DNA from: a virus | IMG/VR virus record: IMGVR_UViG_3300033553_000042 | Location: 1-44,261 of that record | DNA length: 44,261 nt | Reading direction: 5' to 3' (one strand) | Shown: positions 3,253-11,784 of the stretch, in pieces | How positions within the stretch are numbered: position 1 is the first letter of the stretch | Layout of the letters: every line of letters begins with the position of its first letter | The notes under the pieces: model-generated | The model's input: only the letters and a program-made list of their open reading frames with translations | Told to the model about the DNA's origin: nothing | The model's database searches: none | Program-made: the position numbers and the translations under genes

Positions 3253-3378
3253 ATGACTAATAATAGGTACGAATTTAAACTGCTCCTAATAGGATTTAGA
3301 GCAAGATTGCAAGGTGATGGGCACACTCTCTGGCTAGTGGAGCAAGAGATGAGTCGACTGGAGAAGAAACATGGCTGA
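3253..3378 (+). CDS. Small hypothetical protein (41 aa)
   Basis: The frame begins MTNNRYEFKLLLIGFRARL and ends EKKHG. It has an AAAGGGAC ribosome site. It is the first gene of a cluster of four overlapping small genes and its stop overlaps the next start. Likely a single amphipathic helix with a basic tail. The function is unknown. Confidence 0.6.
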   Translation: MTNNRYEFKLLLIGFRARLQGDGHTLWLVEQEMSRLEKKHG

Positions 3379-3472
3379 GGAAGACGAGGCTATACTGGCA
3401 TACTATGAGCAAGGTGGTAATGCTGAGAATGAATACCTTGCATACTTAGATTATCTGGAGGTGAGGGCATGA
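3371..3472 (+). CDS. Small acidic hypothetical protein (33 aa)
   Basis: MAEEDEAILAYYEQGGNAEN opens a very acidic, tyrosine-rich peptide. It overlaps the previous gene by 8 bases and the next by 4 (ATGA), so it would be translated by coupling. No strong ribosome site of its own is seen. Confidence 0.5.
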   Translation: MAEEDEAILAYYEQGGNAENEYLAYLDYLEVRA

Positions 3473-3618
3473 GCGCTTTAACCACATTCATTGTATTAAC
3501 CCTGTTTTATGGGGGTGGTGCAGTTATTAGTGAGACTTACTACCCGTGTGATAGGGTGGTGAGAGGCCCTGATGTCACATTGGAACAGTGTCTAGCTAAG
3601 GAGAAGGGTTATGAGTAG
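3469..3618 (+). CDS. Small exported or membrane protein (49 aa)
   Basis: The first 22 residues are hydrophobic (MSALTTFIVLTLFYGGGAVI) as in a signal peptide or one membrane helix, followed by a short polar part with two cysteines (YPCDRV, EQCLAKEK) that could form a disulphide outside the cytoplasm. GGAGGTGAGGGC precedes the start. The function is unknown; envelope-directed early proteins include superinfection-exclusion factors, but nothing here proves that. Confidence 0.6.
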   Translation: MSALTTFIVLTLFYGGGAVISETYYPCDRVVRGPDVTLEQCLAKEKGYE

Positions 3619-6423: not shown

Positions 6424-6654
6424 ATGGAAGTTAAAGTAATTCGTGTACCGGGTCGTACTTCAACAGTTGAAGTTCCTGAAAATTGTACATTAGCAGAAGC
6501 TCTTAACACAGCTGGCGTTGCTCTGGAATCTGGTGAAGCATGTAAATTGAATGGTGCAGCAGCATCTCTTGATGACATACTATCTGATGGCGACAAAGTG
6601 ATCGTTGCTAAGGGGGCTAAGGGAAATTGCCCACTGCACCTCTCAAGAGATTAA
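6424..6654 (+). CDS. Ubiquitin-like beta-grasp protein (MoaD/ThiS type)
   Basis: A 76-residue protein, about the size of ubiquitin. The pattern fits the MoaD/ThiS beta-grasp family: a first hairpin (MEVKVIRVPGRTSTVEVP), a helix with TLAEALNTAG, then KLNGAAASLDDILSDGDKVI, matching the family signature of Asn-Gly, Leu-x-Asp-Gly-Asp and a final strand. It lacks a terminal Gly-Gly. Instead AKGAKG (62-67) is followed by nine residues (NCPLHLSRD), so removal of a tail after Gly67 is plausible and a JAB protease is encoded nearby. GAGG lies nine bases before the ATG. Codon use suggests high expression. It is followed 74 bases later by the E1 gene. The modifier role is inferred from fold pattern and neighbours; a sulphur-carrier role is less likely with an E2-like gene present. 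Confidence 0.8.
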   Translation: MEVKVIRVPGRTSTVEVPENCTLAEALNTAGVALESGEACKLNGAAASLDDILSDGDKVIVAKGAKGNCPLHLSRD

Positions 6655-6728: not shown

Positions 6729-7406
6729 ATGATTAATACAGCAAGACACGTAGAGGTGTTTAATCCACTCCTCTATCAACACCCAATTCATATCATAGGG
6801 GCTGGAGCTACTGGCTCTCGCTTATTTGCGTCCCTAGTCGAGCTTGGTTTCGACGATATCACCGTATACGATGATGACATCGTAGAAAATCACAACTTAG
6901 CTAATCAGTTGTTTGTAATGGACGACATAGATAAACTTAAGGTTGATGGGCTTGACAGGTGGGTTCAACAAAAACTAGGTGAAGGCTTAAAGAATGGGGT
7001 GTATGTCCCACATCGGCTACCTAATAAAAATTTCCAGTTAGAGGGTACAGTTTTCCTCTTAACTGACACAATGACAAGTCGAAGAGAAATCTTTGACCAC
7101 TGTCTGAAGGATAATTTGATGGTTGAGCGTGTTATTGAGACACGTATGGCCTCATCCTTCGGGAATATCTACTCGTTTGACCCAAATATCGTGGGTGACC
7201 AGTGGCTATCTACATTAATTGATGATGATGAGGCTGAAGTATCTACATGTGGTAGTAGTATCAGCGTTGGGGCTACAGCTTCCATCATAGCTAATCAGGC
7301 GGTGTGGCAGTTTATGCTATCATTAACTGACCCTGAAGCTCATGACGACATTGTCGATATCTTTTTACAACCACTTTGTATGGGGACAAGAAAATGGGAA
7401 TACTAG
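6729..7406 (+). CDS. E1-like ThiF-family adenylating enzyme
   Basis: A 225-residue Rossmann protein of the ThiF/MoeB/E1 family, expected to use ATP to adenylate the C-terminus of the Ubl. Visible motifs: the nucleotide loop GAGATGSR (24-31), the acidic strand end and Asn/Gln motif VYDDDIVENHNLANQ (46-60), the downstream Asp in LLTDTMTSRRE (110-120) and STCGSSISVGATAS (172-185), where Cys174 is at the place of the E1 active-site cysteine. It is short, with no extra E1 domain and no Cys-x2-Cys zinc pairs as in MoeB. GAGGAAA gives the start. Its last 13 bases overlap the next gene. Confidence 0.88.
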   Translation: MINTARHVEVFNPLLYQHPIHIIGAGATGSRLFASLVELGFDDITVYDDDIVENHNLANQLFVMDDIDKLKVDGLDRWVQQKLGEGLKNGVYVPHRLPNKNFQLEGTVFLLTDTMTSRREIFDHCLKDNLMVERVIETRMASSFGNIYSFDPNIVGDQWLSTLIDDDEAEVSTCGSSISVGATASIIANQAVWQFMLSLTDPEAHDDIVDIFLQPLCMGTRKWEY

Positions 7407-7735
7407 CAACACAACTTATAACCCACATAAGTGAGGCTCTCATCTATGAGGGAGTGGGTGCTCAGATTGACTTACTACCTAAGAATACAACCCTTAGTAA
7501 GGTGATTACTGAGGAGGGTGTTTGGGCTTGGTCTTTCCAAGTATATTCAGGCGTCCCCCTTCACATCTTTTTCTATGTGGAAAAAGGCTTGACTCTGACC
7601 CACGTTCAAGTAATGCAGGGGCCTATGGACCATAAGACGACCAAGGCTGAGGTTGCAATCATATCGGAAGCCTTTGAGTGGCTGTTATTAGAGGGGGTAT
7701 TCCATGTCAAGAAAACGAAATCGGAGAGTGAATAA
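7394..7735 (+). CDS. Cassette protein, cysteine-free, alpha/beta (113 aa)
   Basis: It begins MGILATQLITHISEALIYEG at the ATG inside the end of the E1 gene; an in-frame ATG at 7376 is further inside E1 and less likely. Predicted order by eye: helix, four strands (AQIDLLPK, VWAWSFQVYSG, LHIFFYVEKG, THVQVMQG), then a long helix (KAEVAIISEAFEWLLLEGVF). That order resembles a small RWD/UEV-type E2-like fold without an active cysteine, but this is weak inference. Its position between E1 and JAB and the overlaps make it a cassette component, perhaps an adaptor holding Ubl or target. No sequence family is recognised. Confidence 0.7.
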   Translation: MGILATQLITHISEALIYEGVGAQIDLLPKNTTLSKVITEEGVWAWSFQVYSGVPLHIFFYVEKGLTLTHVQVMQGPMDHKTTKAEVAIISEAFEWLLLEGVFHVKKTKSESE

Positions 7736-7736
7736 G

Positions 7737-8489
7737 ATGTCACAGATTATAAAACCAAGATTCAAAATTACAGCTACCAGTATGGTGGCAAAAGCAGAGC
7801 CACTCTTATCCGTCGATCAGAGTAAGAGCCCTTCTGTCTGGTACTCTAACAAGGCTTGGTTGAAGATTAAGAGGGTGGTTGGTATGTGCCCTGAAGAAGT
7901 TGGCTGGTTAGGGACCGTTGACCGAGTTGATGGTGGCTATATAGTTACGGATATCTTTGTCCCCAAGCAAGTTGTTACAGGTACTGAGTGTGATATTGAA
8001 GCTGAAGATCTAGCCCAGCTGGTCCATGATTTAGATTATCCTGAGAACCTGTTCTATTGGGGACATTCCCATGTAAATATGGGTGTGAGCCCTAGTGTTC
8101 AGGATGAAAACCAGACCGGTGAATACCTTGAGCATAATGATGTGTTCATACGGGGTATCTATAACAAGCGAGGTGACTCAAAGGTTGATGTGTTTGACAC
8201 CGTCCAAGGTATGCAGTATCTCGTATGTCCTAATGGGGTTCGTATTGAACCTCTGTCCAGTGAGGAGATGGAAGCATTTGTCACCGGTGTAAAAGCTAAT
8301 GTAAATAAACCACCTGCATATGTCACACCTTATGTTAGTCAACAGGAAAAGATTGCAACTGATAAAAGGTTGGCTGAGTTTAAGGCGAAGAATAAAAGGG
8401 GTACCCCACCTGTCACTACCCGATTTCACAATAGCCCGGTTACTGCACTATATGAAAATCCGTTCATAGTGCTGGAGCGTGATTCATGA
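7737..8489 (+). CDS. JAB/JAMM-family metalloprotease (deubiquitinase-like)
   Basis: A 250-residue protein with a complete JAMM zinc protease motif: EVGWLG carries the catalytic Glu (residue 54), and GHSHVNMGVSPSVQD (109-123) gives His-x-His-x7-Ser-x2-Asp (His110, His112, Ser120, Asp123). Such enzymes cut after the Gly of a ubiquitin-like protein, either to trim its tail or to release it from targets. A C-terminal extension of about 100 residues, Lys- and Pro-containing, has no known motif. The start is ambiguous: ATG 7737 directly follows the previous stop, while an in-frame ATG at 7704 behind GAGGGGG would add 11 basic residues. The stop overlaps the E2-like gene by four bases. Confidence 0.9.
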   Translation: MSQIIKPRFKITATSMVAKAEPLLSVDQSKSPSVWYSNKAWLKIKRVVGMCPEEVGWLGTVDRVDGGYIVTDIFVPKQVVTGTECDIEAEDLAQLVHDLDYPENLFYWGHSHVNMGVSPSVQDENQTGEYLEHNDVFIRGIYNKRGDSKVDVFDTVQGMQYLVCPNGVRIEPLSSEEMEAFVTGVKANVNKPPAYVTPYVSQQEKIATDKRLAEFKAKNKRGTPPVTTRFHNSPVTALYENPFIVLERDS

Positions 8490-9718
8490 AAGTGAACCAA
8501 GTTGAGATCAAGAGTGTGGAACAGAGGAATTGTGAACGAGATATTAGCTCGTATGAAAACAGTCTTTTGGGATTGAAGGATGATGTACTCTTTCATAAGA
8601 GCACGTTGGACAAGTCTGAGAAGTTCTTGGTTACAGCAAACAACCGTTCGATAGATTATTTCTTTAAGAATGAACGGGTTGACAGAAACATTCGCTCTCT
8701 ATTACGGAACTCTTTTAACAATGAAATGGCTGGCAATAGAGCGAGAGTTAGGCGTTCAACGAATGCCATTGCCCACGCTGGTCGGAAGATCGTGGACTAT
8801 CAGAAGTTTCTCACAAGGCGCAAGGCTGAGTTGATTATGATCGTTGGACAACATCCACCTCGTATACTGACACAAGAAGATGTTCGTGATAAGTTAAGGG
8901 ATTTTGAACATGTGGACCTAGAGAACACCTACTTATATCATGATCATGGTGTTCCGGAACTCGTCGTTCGCTTTACTGGGATTAGATGTGAATTGAGGGA
9001 AAAACCTCACGGTAACATCCTTGATTCAAGCTGGATACTACCCGATATGAATGTTAGGATAAACCTTATAACAGGGTTGTCTCGTGTTTGCCGACTTCAG
9101 ACGGAGGAGAGAATGCCCCGAGGTTGGTCAGTGAATAAAGTGCACCCCCATATAATGGATGGGGAGGTCCCCTGTTATGGGGACTTCTTAGGTGCGGCTA
9201 ACGATGCTAAGGACTCTCAGGATATTACCGAAATGGTTACTATCATGCAGATGTTCCTAGAGACAGTAAATTATGACGACTCGGCAGGTAAGAAGTATGC
9301 CAGATACCTAATATATCGGTCTGAAGGTTTCAATTCAAGAGGTGTGGAGGGGGATCTCGTCAATAGTTTAGAGCGTATAGGTGGTGGTCTGGCGAATATA
9401 TATACGACGAAGGTAGACCACCCTACCACAGGTAGGCGGGTATTCTATGTACCCGTTGTTGAAGAGGGTGTCTATTCTTGCCACTATGTCGAGATTAGTA
9501 CGAATCATATTAAAGAGTTTACCGACGACTTAAGACTCCCTAAAGGTGAACGAAAGATAGCCATTTCGGAAGAACAAAAGGCGGCTAATTTAGAGGTTGA
9601 ACAAGCTCGTATTAAAAAGGCTTTGATTGCGAATGGAAATTGGAAGGAACCACCTATAGCCCCACCGCAGGTACCAGCTCCTCATCCTGACCTTAGGGTA
9701 GACCGAGACGGGGATTGA
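8486..9718 (+). CDS. E2-like conjugating protein with coiled-coil N-terminus
   Basis: A 410-residue protein beginning at ATGA over the JAB stop. Residues 1-120 are helical and highly charged, probably a coiled coil. Residues about 125-300 contain VHPHIMDGEVPCYGDFLGA (219-237), which matches the E2 active-site pattern His-Pro-x-Ile ... Gly-x-x-Cys, with Cys230 as the expected thioester cysteine, followed by a helical stretch (VTIMQMFLETVNYDD) as in the E2 helix after the active site. The region before it (WILPDMNVRINLITG) fits the strands of a UBC fold. Residues 300-410 form an extra domain ending in a Pro-rich tail. Expected role: accept the Ubl from E1 and pass it to a target lysine. No RING-type E3 is seen nearby, so this protein may choose targets itself. 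It is the most diverged member and the call rests on one motif plus context. Confidence 0.75.
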   Translation: MKVNQVEIKSVEQRNCERDISSYENSLLGLKDDVLFHKSTLDKSEKFLVTANNRSIDYFFKNERVDRNIRSLLRNSFNNEMAGNRARVRRSTNAIAHAGRKIVDYQKFLTRRKAELIMIVGQHPPRILTQEDVRDKLRDFEHVDLENTYLYHDHGVPELVVRFTGIRCELREKPHGNILDSSWILPDMNVRINLITGLSRVCRLQTEERMPRGWSVNKVHPHIMDGEVPCYGDFLGAANDAKDSQDITEMVTIMQMFLETVNYDDSAGKKYARYLIYRSEGFNSRGVEGDLVNSLERIGGGLANIYTTKVDHPTTGRRVFYVPVVEEGVYSCHYVEISTNHIKEFTDDLRLPKGERKIAISEEQKAANLEVEQARIKKALIANGNWKEPPIAPPQVPAPHPDLRVDRDGD

Positions 9719-10092: not shown

Positions 10093-11784
10093 ATGGGAAT
10101 ATGTGTAGAGAAGCTCCCACATAATACGGATAATTGTAACAGTAGTTCAGGATTACAGGTCTACGAAGATGAAGATGGGGGTTATAATGGATATTGTTGG
10201 GCTTGTGATACATTTGTCACAGACCCGTACAAGGATAAGCCGAAGGGGTATAAACCGGTTTCAATTAAGAAAGACCCGGCGGTTGTAGCACAAGAAATAT
10301 GGGACATCAGTCAATACCCTATCGTTGATGTTCCTCAGAGAGGTTTAGAAAAGAGAGCTCTTGAATATTTTGGGTATAGAATAGGTGTTAGTGGGGTAGA
10401 TGGTGTGACCCCGGCCATATTGTATAGACCGTATACCAAGGATACTGAGTTCTCTTCGTATAAGTCAAAGATATTAGACGAGAATGTTCCTAAGAAGAAA
10501 CGTCAGTGGTCTATAGGCGACCAGTCAGATGTTGATTTATTTGGGTGGGACATGGCCGTATCTAGTGGGAGCCCTAAGCTCATTATAACGGAAGGCGAAG
10601 AAGATGCAGTAGCCCTGTACCAAATGATTCGCAAAGTTAATGAGACGGCACAAGGGGGTAAGTATGTTGACCTTCTCCCAGCCGTTGTTAGTCTACCTCA
10701 CGGTGCTGCCGCTAGTGTTAGAGACCTCTCCCGACTAGCCTCAAAGATACAGGCTAATTTTAAAGAAATCATATTAGCCTTTGATATGGACGAGGTTGGT
10801 CAAGATTGGGCTCAGAAGGTAGTAGAGAAAGTCTTCGGTCACGCCAAGATTGCTTCCCTCCCTGCACATGATGCTAATGCCTGTCTTACGGAAGGTCGCA
10901 CTAAGGCCTGTGTAAGCGCCGTTCTCTGGAAGGCTAGTATCCCGAAGAACACCCGTATAGTAAAAGGGAGTTCTCTTCGTGAGCTCGCTCTCAAGAAGCC
11001 TGAGTGGGGTTTAGACTACCCCTTCAAGAAGCTTACAAAGATTACCCGTGGAAGACGTAGAGGGGAAACTATTTATGTTGGAGCCGGGGTTAAAATGGGT
11101 AAGTCTGAACTCGTCGATACGTTTGCTAAACAGATTATCGTAGAGGACGATCTACCGTGTTTCCTAGTTAAACCAGAACAGAGTAATGGGAGAACCTATC
11201 AACAGCTTGTAGGTAAGGCCGCTGGTAAAATCTTCCATGACCCAAGCGTCCCATTTGATGAGGAGGCTTTCTGTAGAGCTGAGAAGCTCATAGGGGACAA
11301 AGCTATCATCCTTGACAGTTACCAATTCCTAGATTGGGACGTACTGAAACAGGATATTCGATATGTAGTGTTAGGTGAGGGGGTTCAAGATATAATCATA
11401 GACCCCATTACAGCCTTCACGAATCAAATGAACTCTTCTGAAGCTAATGAATTCCTCATTGGCATGGCAGCCGAACTATCTTCAATGTCGTTAGACTTGA
11501 ACTTTACCTCGTTCCTATTCTGTCACCTAAAAGCACCTCGAGATGGAATGACCCCACATGAAAGAGGGGGGGAAGTCCTCAGTAGTCAGTTTGCTGGCTC
11601 AAGGGCTATGATGCGTTCATGTAACTACATGATGGCGTTACAAGGTAATAAAGACCCGGAATTAGAGGAGAACCAACGCAACATGAGGCAACTTGTTATC
11701 CTTGAGGATAGAGAGTTTGGTCAGGTTGGGAAGGTTGATCTGTTCTGGGATAAAAACACAGGCTTATTTAATGAGGTGAGGTAA
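10093..11784 (+). CDS. T7 gp4-like primase-helicase
   Basis: A 563-residue bifunctional replication protein. The N-terminal zinc-binding part has Cys4, Cys16 and CWAC near residues 36-39. A TOPRIM domain follows with TEGEEDAVALYQ and LAFDMDEVGQDWA, the Glu and Asp-x-Asp metal ligands. The helicase half carries Walker A GAGVKMGKSE, a Walker B-like strand IIIDPITAF and FCHLKAP, as in the DnaB/RecA fold of T7 gp4. It unwinds the fork and lays primers for the polymerase encoded downstream. AGGAGACC precedes the ATG. Its stop overlaps the phosphatase start (TAATG). Length matches T7 gp4 (566 residues). Confidence 0.93.
   Translation: MGICVEKLPHNTDNCNSSSGLQVYEDEDGGYNGYCWACDTFVTDPYKDKPKGYKPVSIKKDPAVVAQEIWDISQYPIVDVPQRGLEKRALEYFGYRIGVSGVDGVTPAILYRPYTKDTEFSSYKSKILDENVPKKKRQWSIGDQSDVDLFGWDMAVSSGSPKLIITEGEEDAVALYQMIRKVNETAQGGKYVDLLPAVVSLPHGAAASVRDLSRLASKIQANFKEIILAFDMDEVGQDWAQKVVEKVFGHAKIASLPAHDANACLTEGRTKACVSAVLWKASIPKNTRIVKGSSLRELALKKPEWGLDYPFKKLTKITRGRRRGETIYVGAGVKMGKSELVDTFAKQIIVEDDLPCFLVKPEQSNGRTYQQLVGKAAGKIFHDPSVPFDEEAFCRAEKLIGDKAIILDSYQFLDWDVLKQDIRYVVLGEGVQDIIIDPITAFTNQMNSSEANEFLIGMAAELSSMSLDLNFTSFLFCHLKAPRDGMTPHERGGEVLSSQFAGSRAMMRSCNYMMALQGNKDPELEENQRNMRQLVILEDREFGQVGKVDLFWDKNTGLFNEVR

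Follow-up and report, generated by a model that had tools for sequence, protein, structure and literature searches.

Open reading frame 8486–9718 very probably encodes the E2-type enzyme that performs conjugation in a complete ubiquitin-like (Ubl) modification pathway carried by a phage, as judged from its sequence and predicted structure. The window analysed here is a 44,261-bp virus record, in which a cassette encodes, all on the + strand, a Ubl, an E1, a 119-aa ORF, a JAB metallopeptidase and the E2-like protein, in this order. The first-pass annotation had described the last of these as a diverged E2-like protein, and this held. Cys230 is conserved, a UBC fold is predicted, and E1, Ubl and JAB are encoded alongside. 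Of the features of the E2/UBC superfamily in its broad sense, a predicted UBC fold, a conserved loop Cys after the meander, and E1 and Ubl gene partners were present. The four parts, their co-occurrence, their conserved catalytic residues and their folds were traced by sequence comparison and structure prediction.

The E2-like gene (8486..9718, + strand) ends with a TGA stop codon and begins with an ATG that shares bases with the stop codon of JAB (ATGA). Its assignment draws on the ORF, this overlap, a homologue profile, and AlphaFold2 with VIA-align. The 410-aa product contains VHPHIMDGEVPCYGDF, and its active-site stretch reads V-H220-P-H-I-M-D-G-E-V-P-C230-Y-G-D-F; the length and the Cys ten residues after His220 were as first described. 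No Pfam, PHROG, NCBIfam or PADLOC model recognized the protein, and the Pfam E2 models gave no match to it at E ≤ 1. When 40 members of the E2-like family were tested, no E2 model appeared among the 25 most-matched families. Used as a single query, the protein found no relatives in IMG/VR or GenBank phages (tblastn).

Using an iterated HMM search of all ORFs in the JAB- and E1-derived loci, we detected 104 E2-like ORFs in phage contigs, 90 of which were distinct. Cys230 was kept in 88 of the 90 and His222 in 89, as counted in a final profile search without a motif filter, the seed alignment of which had been motif-filtered. Pro221 and Gly232 were also nearly invariant, against a mean column identity of ~17% for the family. 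The presence of Cys230 in 88 of 90 homologues indicates that the motif is not due to chance. Position 220 held His in 39 relatives, Asn in 32 and Gln, Ala or another residue in the rest. Of the two residues initially singled out, Cys230 was therefore confirmed as conserved, whereas the conserved His is His222 and not His220. The family's putative catalytic signature, deduced from the alignment, is [HN]-P-H-x(n)-C-x-G, corresponding in the window to H220-P221-H222 ... C230-x-G232 (9143..9181, + strand). These proteins form a large and apparently undescribed phage family beside DNA-replication genes.

Two E2-like ORFs per phage were observed in five loci (L028:3991-6957, L100:2875-6025, L104:1944-5160, L038 and L080). 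In L028 and L080, the second ORF lacked the Cys, which is reminiscent of an E2/UEV pair; these were the only Cys-less ORFs among the 90. Many E2-like proteins end in AA or AAG (L011, L012, L015, L021), and the L002 Ubl (3257-3490) ends in ...NALAA. Such ends recall ssrA-type degrons, which may be a coincidence.

AlphaFold2 modelled the full-length protein as a hairpin followed by a helix, a beta-meander, the PH..C loop and two helices. With this model, Foldseek and VIA-align against the PDB returned almost only coiled coils, and the viral structure library gave no usable match. A profile search of PDB sequences with the E2-like family likewise yielded only coiled-coil noise. Because coiled coils had swamped the full-length structure search, the core (residues ~123–285; 8852..9340, + strand) was folded alone. 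The resulting model had a pLDDT of 87.7 and a pTM of 0.84, with its elements (helix, beta-meander, PH...C loop, helices) in E2 order. Foldseek of this core against the PDB gave nothing significant (best E 0.27) and listed no clear E2. When Foldseek's candidate structures were re-aligned with VIA-align, E2-superfamily structures filled the top ~36 rows almost completely (Z 4.5–7.4). The best match was UBE2W (Z 7.4, 113 residues aligned, rmsd 3.3 Å), and other top matches included UbcH5c, Ubc12, Cdc34, Cap2, the BubCD-BubB complex, UFC1, UEVs, Atg10 and RWD. A Z of ~7 is modest, and the predicted UBC fold of the core is strongly supported by the uniformity of the top rows, not by the score. This agrees with the UBC-type fold on which the original assignment depended.

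In front of the core, residues 11–122 (8516..8851, + strand) were predicted to form a two-helix coiled-coil hairpin, with helices H11-53 and H67-122 at a pLDDT of mostly 93–98 (AlphaFold2). Charged residues abound in the first ~122 positions, matching the charged helical N-terminus noted at first pass. Averaged over the 88 Cys-bearing relatives, the 100 residues 5' of the core contained 1.4% Pro, compared with 4.1% in the core. This upstream part was also Gly-poor and more charged, as a hairpin predicts. The coiled-coil hairpin is a feature of the E2-like family, and targeting is a plausible, hypothetical role for the modelled arm.

The core is followed by a C-terminal extension (residues ~286–410; 9341..9715, + strand). 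The first-pass annotation had read this as an extra domain of 100 residues. About 100 residues do follow the core, but they are not a conserved domain: their pLDDT is below 50 over much of their length (AlphaFold2), and 53 of the 88 Cys-bearing relatives terminate within 90 residues past the Cys. Five relatives have Cys-rich C-terminal tails with 10–32 cysteines (L031:99-1700, L098:4210-5994, L050:3207-4229, L099:8761-10521 and L003:2253-4931), possibly E2-E3-type fusions. For two of these tails, Pfam gave matches of the RING and FYVE types, all of them sub-threshold. The tails look like zinc-binding modules fused to E2. Zinc-finger-like tails in some relatives fit the idea that extensions confer an E3-like or targeting function.

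The first gene of the cassette encodes a 76-aa Ubl, a beta-grasp modifier (6424..6654, + strand) with weak ThiS/Ub-Mut7C matches (E ~0.002). Its C-terminus, ...VAKGAKGN-CPLHLSRD, consists of a conserved GAKGN and an 8-aa extension, which predicts a maturation step, an obvious task for JAB. Next to the cassettes we found 83 distinct Ubl-family ORFs or fragments, most of which end in KGN, KGA, RGA or K-x-D-N-A. The termini are conserved as ...GAKGN, ...QVKGN, ...IRGA or ...VKADNA, and in five members one or two residues follow ...K-x-[DN]-GG. As most Ubls end in GN, GA or NA, not Gly, the reactive C-terminus is uncertain. Tandem Ubls were observed in L038:8441-8869, L054:8860-9303 and L062:8538-8948, and L010 and L011 each carry several Ubl genes.

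The E1-like protein (6729..7406, + strand; 225 aa) is a ThiF adenylyltransferase (Pfam ThiF, 1.2e-14) with one adenylation domain and no separate catalytic-Cys domain. As a single query, it found no relatives in IMG/VR. Among 114 relatives, its nucleotide-site residues G24, G26, D48, D50, N56, K71, D113 and R118, as well as R139 and C174, were invariant or nearly so. Between E1 and JAB lies the 119-aa ORF (7376..7735, + strand), with an uncertain TTG start; family models gave no match to it, and no relative was present in any fetched locus. The JAB/JAMM metallopeptidase (7704..8489, + strand; 261 aa) carries the JAMM motif E-x(n)-H-S/T-H-x7-S-x2-D. E65, H121, H123, S131 and D134 were invariant in 101 of 101 relatives, although many loci had been drawn with the pattern GHSHVNM, so that H121 and H123, but not E65, S131 and D134, were partly preselected.

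A JAB profile built from the window and MT835544 found 157 relatives in IMG/VR viral contigs, from which 80 loci were kept, and an E1 profile gave 64 loci, some on contigs shared with the JAB set. Of the JAB-selected contigs, 57 had flanks of 2.5 kb or more on either side; 53 of these contained the E2 family and 45 all four parts. The remaining four contigs encoded a diverged E2 version with HFG..H.CGGE, which joined the E2-like family in a profile–profile comparison (p 2.6e-6), motif on motif. Furthermore, a JAB or E1 gene lay within 1.5 kb of 88 of the 90 E2-like hits. The JAB profile yielded only 22 loci, mostly on MAG contigs, across the 84,980 species of genome_contigs. Compared with the 157 in viral contigs, and with somewhat different search patterns in the two scans, this fits a system carried mainly by phages. 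Named Xanthomonas phages also have the E2-E1 pair, and one human-gut phage record contains the whole set.

In crAss001, gp78 (L005:1977-3311) lies next to JAB gp77 and E1 gp76 and might be a very diverged E2-like protein; its profile comparison with the E2-like family was not significant. The motif HSHV...PCTGxGP is common to crAss001 and bajarodcaudo virus, and a similar HSHC...CCLG occurs in Dulem virus 41.

The window also encodes DNA polymerase A, a primase-helicase, a 5'-3' exonuclease, ribonucleotide reductase, terminase, a head-tail adaptor and a major head protein, with the cassette just upstream of the primase-helicase at 10093. Across loci, recurrent neighbours were DNA polymerase A (29 loci) and helicase-like and SSB-like proteins, as named by eye from their sequences. 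These replication-gene neighbours suggest that the targets are proteins of replication or early takeover. A reverse transcriptase was found 3' of the E1 gene in ~40 mainly gut-phage cassettes (e.g. L002:6954-8288 and L074:9921-11072); that of L002 matched RVT_1 at 2.3e-15.

The course that we infer, chemical steps, arm function and targets included, is as follows. JAB would remove CPLHLSRD from the Ubl so that it ends in GAKG(N). The C-terminus of the Ubl would then be adenylated by the ThiF-type E1, which would hand the Ubl to Cys230 as a thioester. His222, at the position of Asn in HPN, may help to activate transfer, and the E2-like protein would pass the Ubl to amines of target proteins without a separate E3. 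The coiled-coil arm may recruit E1 or the substrate, and JAB could later remove the tag, reversing conjugation. As the cassette adjoins replication genes, the targets would most likely be replisome or early takeover proteins, of phage or host.

The same cassette could be read as a sulfur-carrier system, in which E1 thiocarboxylates the Ubl, as for ThiS/MoaD, for use in nucleotide, cofactor or tRNA chemistry. The E2-like protein would then act as a scaffold or relay sulfur, and JAB would do no more than mature the carrier. The likeness of the Ubl to ThiS, Ub-Mut7C and SAMP2 and the single-domain ThiF type of the E1 would suit this. We nevertheless consider it improbable, as nearly every cassette has an E2-fold protein with an invariant Cys, and no rhodanese, ThiG or MoaE look-alike was found among the recurrent neighbour clusters listed, read by eye. 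It is highly improbable that the protein is a dead or structural E2-fold (RWD/UEV-like) protein that merely binds Ubl or E1. RWD and UEV domains were among its structural matches and two relatives lack the Cys, but no residues of the family are better conserved than its Cys and His, and both Cys-less copies share a contig with a Cys-bearing one.

A further reading competes over purpose, not enzyme class: the E1-E2-JAB pathway might modify or strip host immune components (e.g. CD-NTases or Bil/Bub targets), not phage proteins. Such counter-defence would fit the phage location, the use of the same chemistry in bacterial immunity (CBASS Cap2, PMC10097602) and the partial match of PADLOC E1-E2 models to the window E1. 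However, the cassette spans very different phage groups and lies repeatedly beside replication genes, and we regard this purpose as possible but rather unlikely. Returning to conjugation directed at replication or early takeover proteins, we lean, with reserve, towards a broader view. Many unrelated phages may carry a complete reversible Ubl pathway in their replication/early module, in which a new E2 family would pick targets via its coiled-coil arm and exchangeable C-terminal modules, including zinc-finger-like fusions resembling E2-E3.

To our knowledge, bacterial Ubl conjugation has so far been known mainly as host anti-phage immunity. If true, a complete E1-E2-Ubl-JAB pathway common among phages would turn this immunity-centred picture round. 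The known E2s would gain a family whose active site is of the PH...C type and whose targeting parts are built in. It would also offer a tractable four-gene system for E2 action without E3s and for what phages gain from protein tagging. We found no prior report of a complete phage-encoded Ubl pathway in the open literature covered, and novelty is claimed no further than that coverage. Relevant mentions of Ubl-pathway terms were absent from a survey of jumbo phages of 2021 (PMC7824862) and from a paper on crAss-like phages (PMC7886860).

Compared with eukaryotic E2s (UBE2W, UbcH5c, Ubc12, Cdc34), the window protein shares the predicted fold, with the Cys past the beta-meander and a Pro-containing motif before it. 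It differs in its identity of only about 11–16%, in the 110-aa hairpin in front, and in having [HN]PH for HPN. With the Asn of HPN replaced by His and no Pfam E2 match, it falls outside the canonical E2s (UQ_con). The window E1 scored 31 bits against TIGR03736, the model for PRTRC-type E1s, whose cut-off is 144.75; we take the PRTRC system to be the type 6d operon.

Bacterial Ubl operon types 6a–6e, including 6d, were described by Iyer, Burroughs and Aravind 2006 (PMC1779556). They resemble the window cassette in co-encoding Ubl, E1, E2-like protein and JAB, in a small stand-alone Ubl and in a JAB adjoining E1. According to that paper, the type 6d E2 has no His ahead of the Cys but one behind it, whereas the conserved His222 of the window precedes Cys230 (PHx..C), and the coiled-coil arm and phage carriers are further differences. 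As far as that paper was covered here, its phage cases are tail-gene TAPI/TAPK pairs. Lambda-type TAPI/TAPK likewise represent a phage-encoded Ubl and JAB, but the window has E1 and E2 in addition, in a replication-gene setting and not among tail-assembly genes.

The Bil system (BilABCD) shares the four-part Ubl/E2/JAB/E1 logic and the predicted maturation of the Ubl by JAB. In Bil, BilA has two Ubl domains, BilB has CEHH with histidines after the Cys, and BilD is an E1 of two domains that includes a Cys domain (PMC11354881). In the window, by contrast, a single Ubl occurs together with a PH...C motif and a single-domain 225-aa E1. Cap2 (Z 5.6) and the BubCD-BubB complex (Z 5.2) matched the window E2 core in VIA-align, but their systems reside in host genomes and the window cassette in a phage. 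Unlike CBASS type II (Cap2/Cap3), the window has separate E1 and E2 ORFs, and the family matches of the neighbouring proteins tested included no CD-NTase. The window cassette would operate in the manner of bacterial Ubl operons, Bil, Bub and CBASS Cap2, yet lacks the features examined here as defining for PRTRC/6d, Bil and CBASS.
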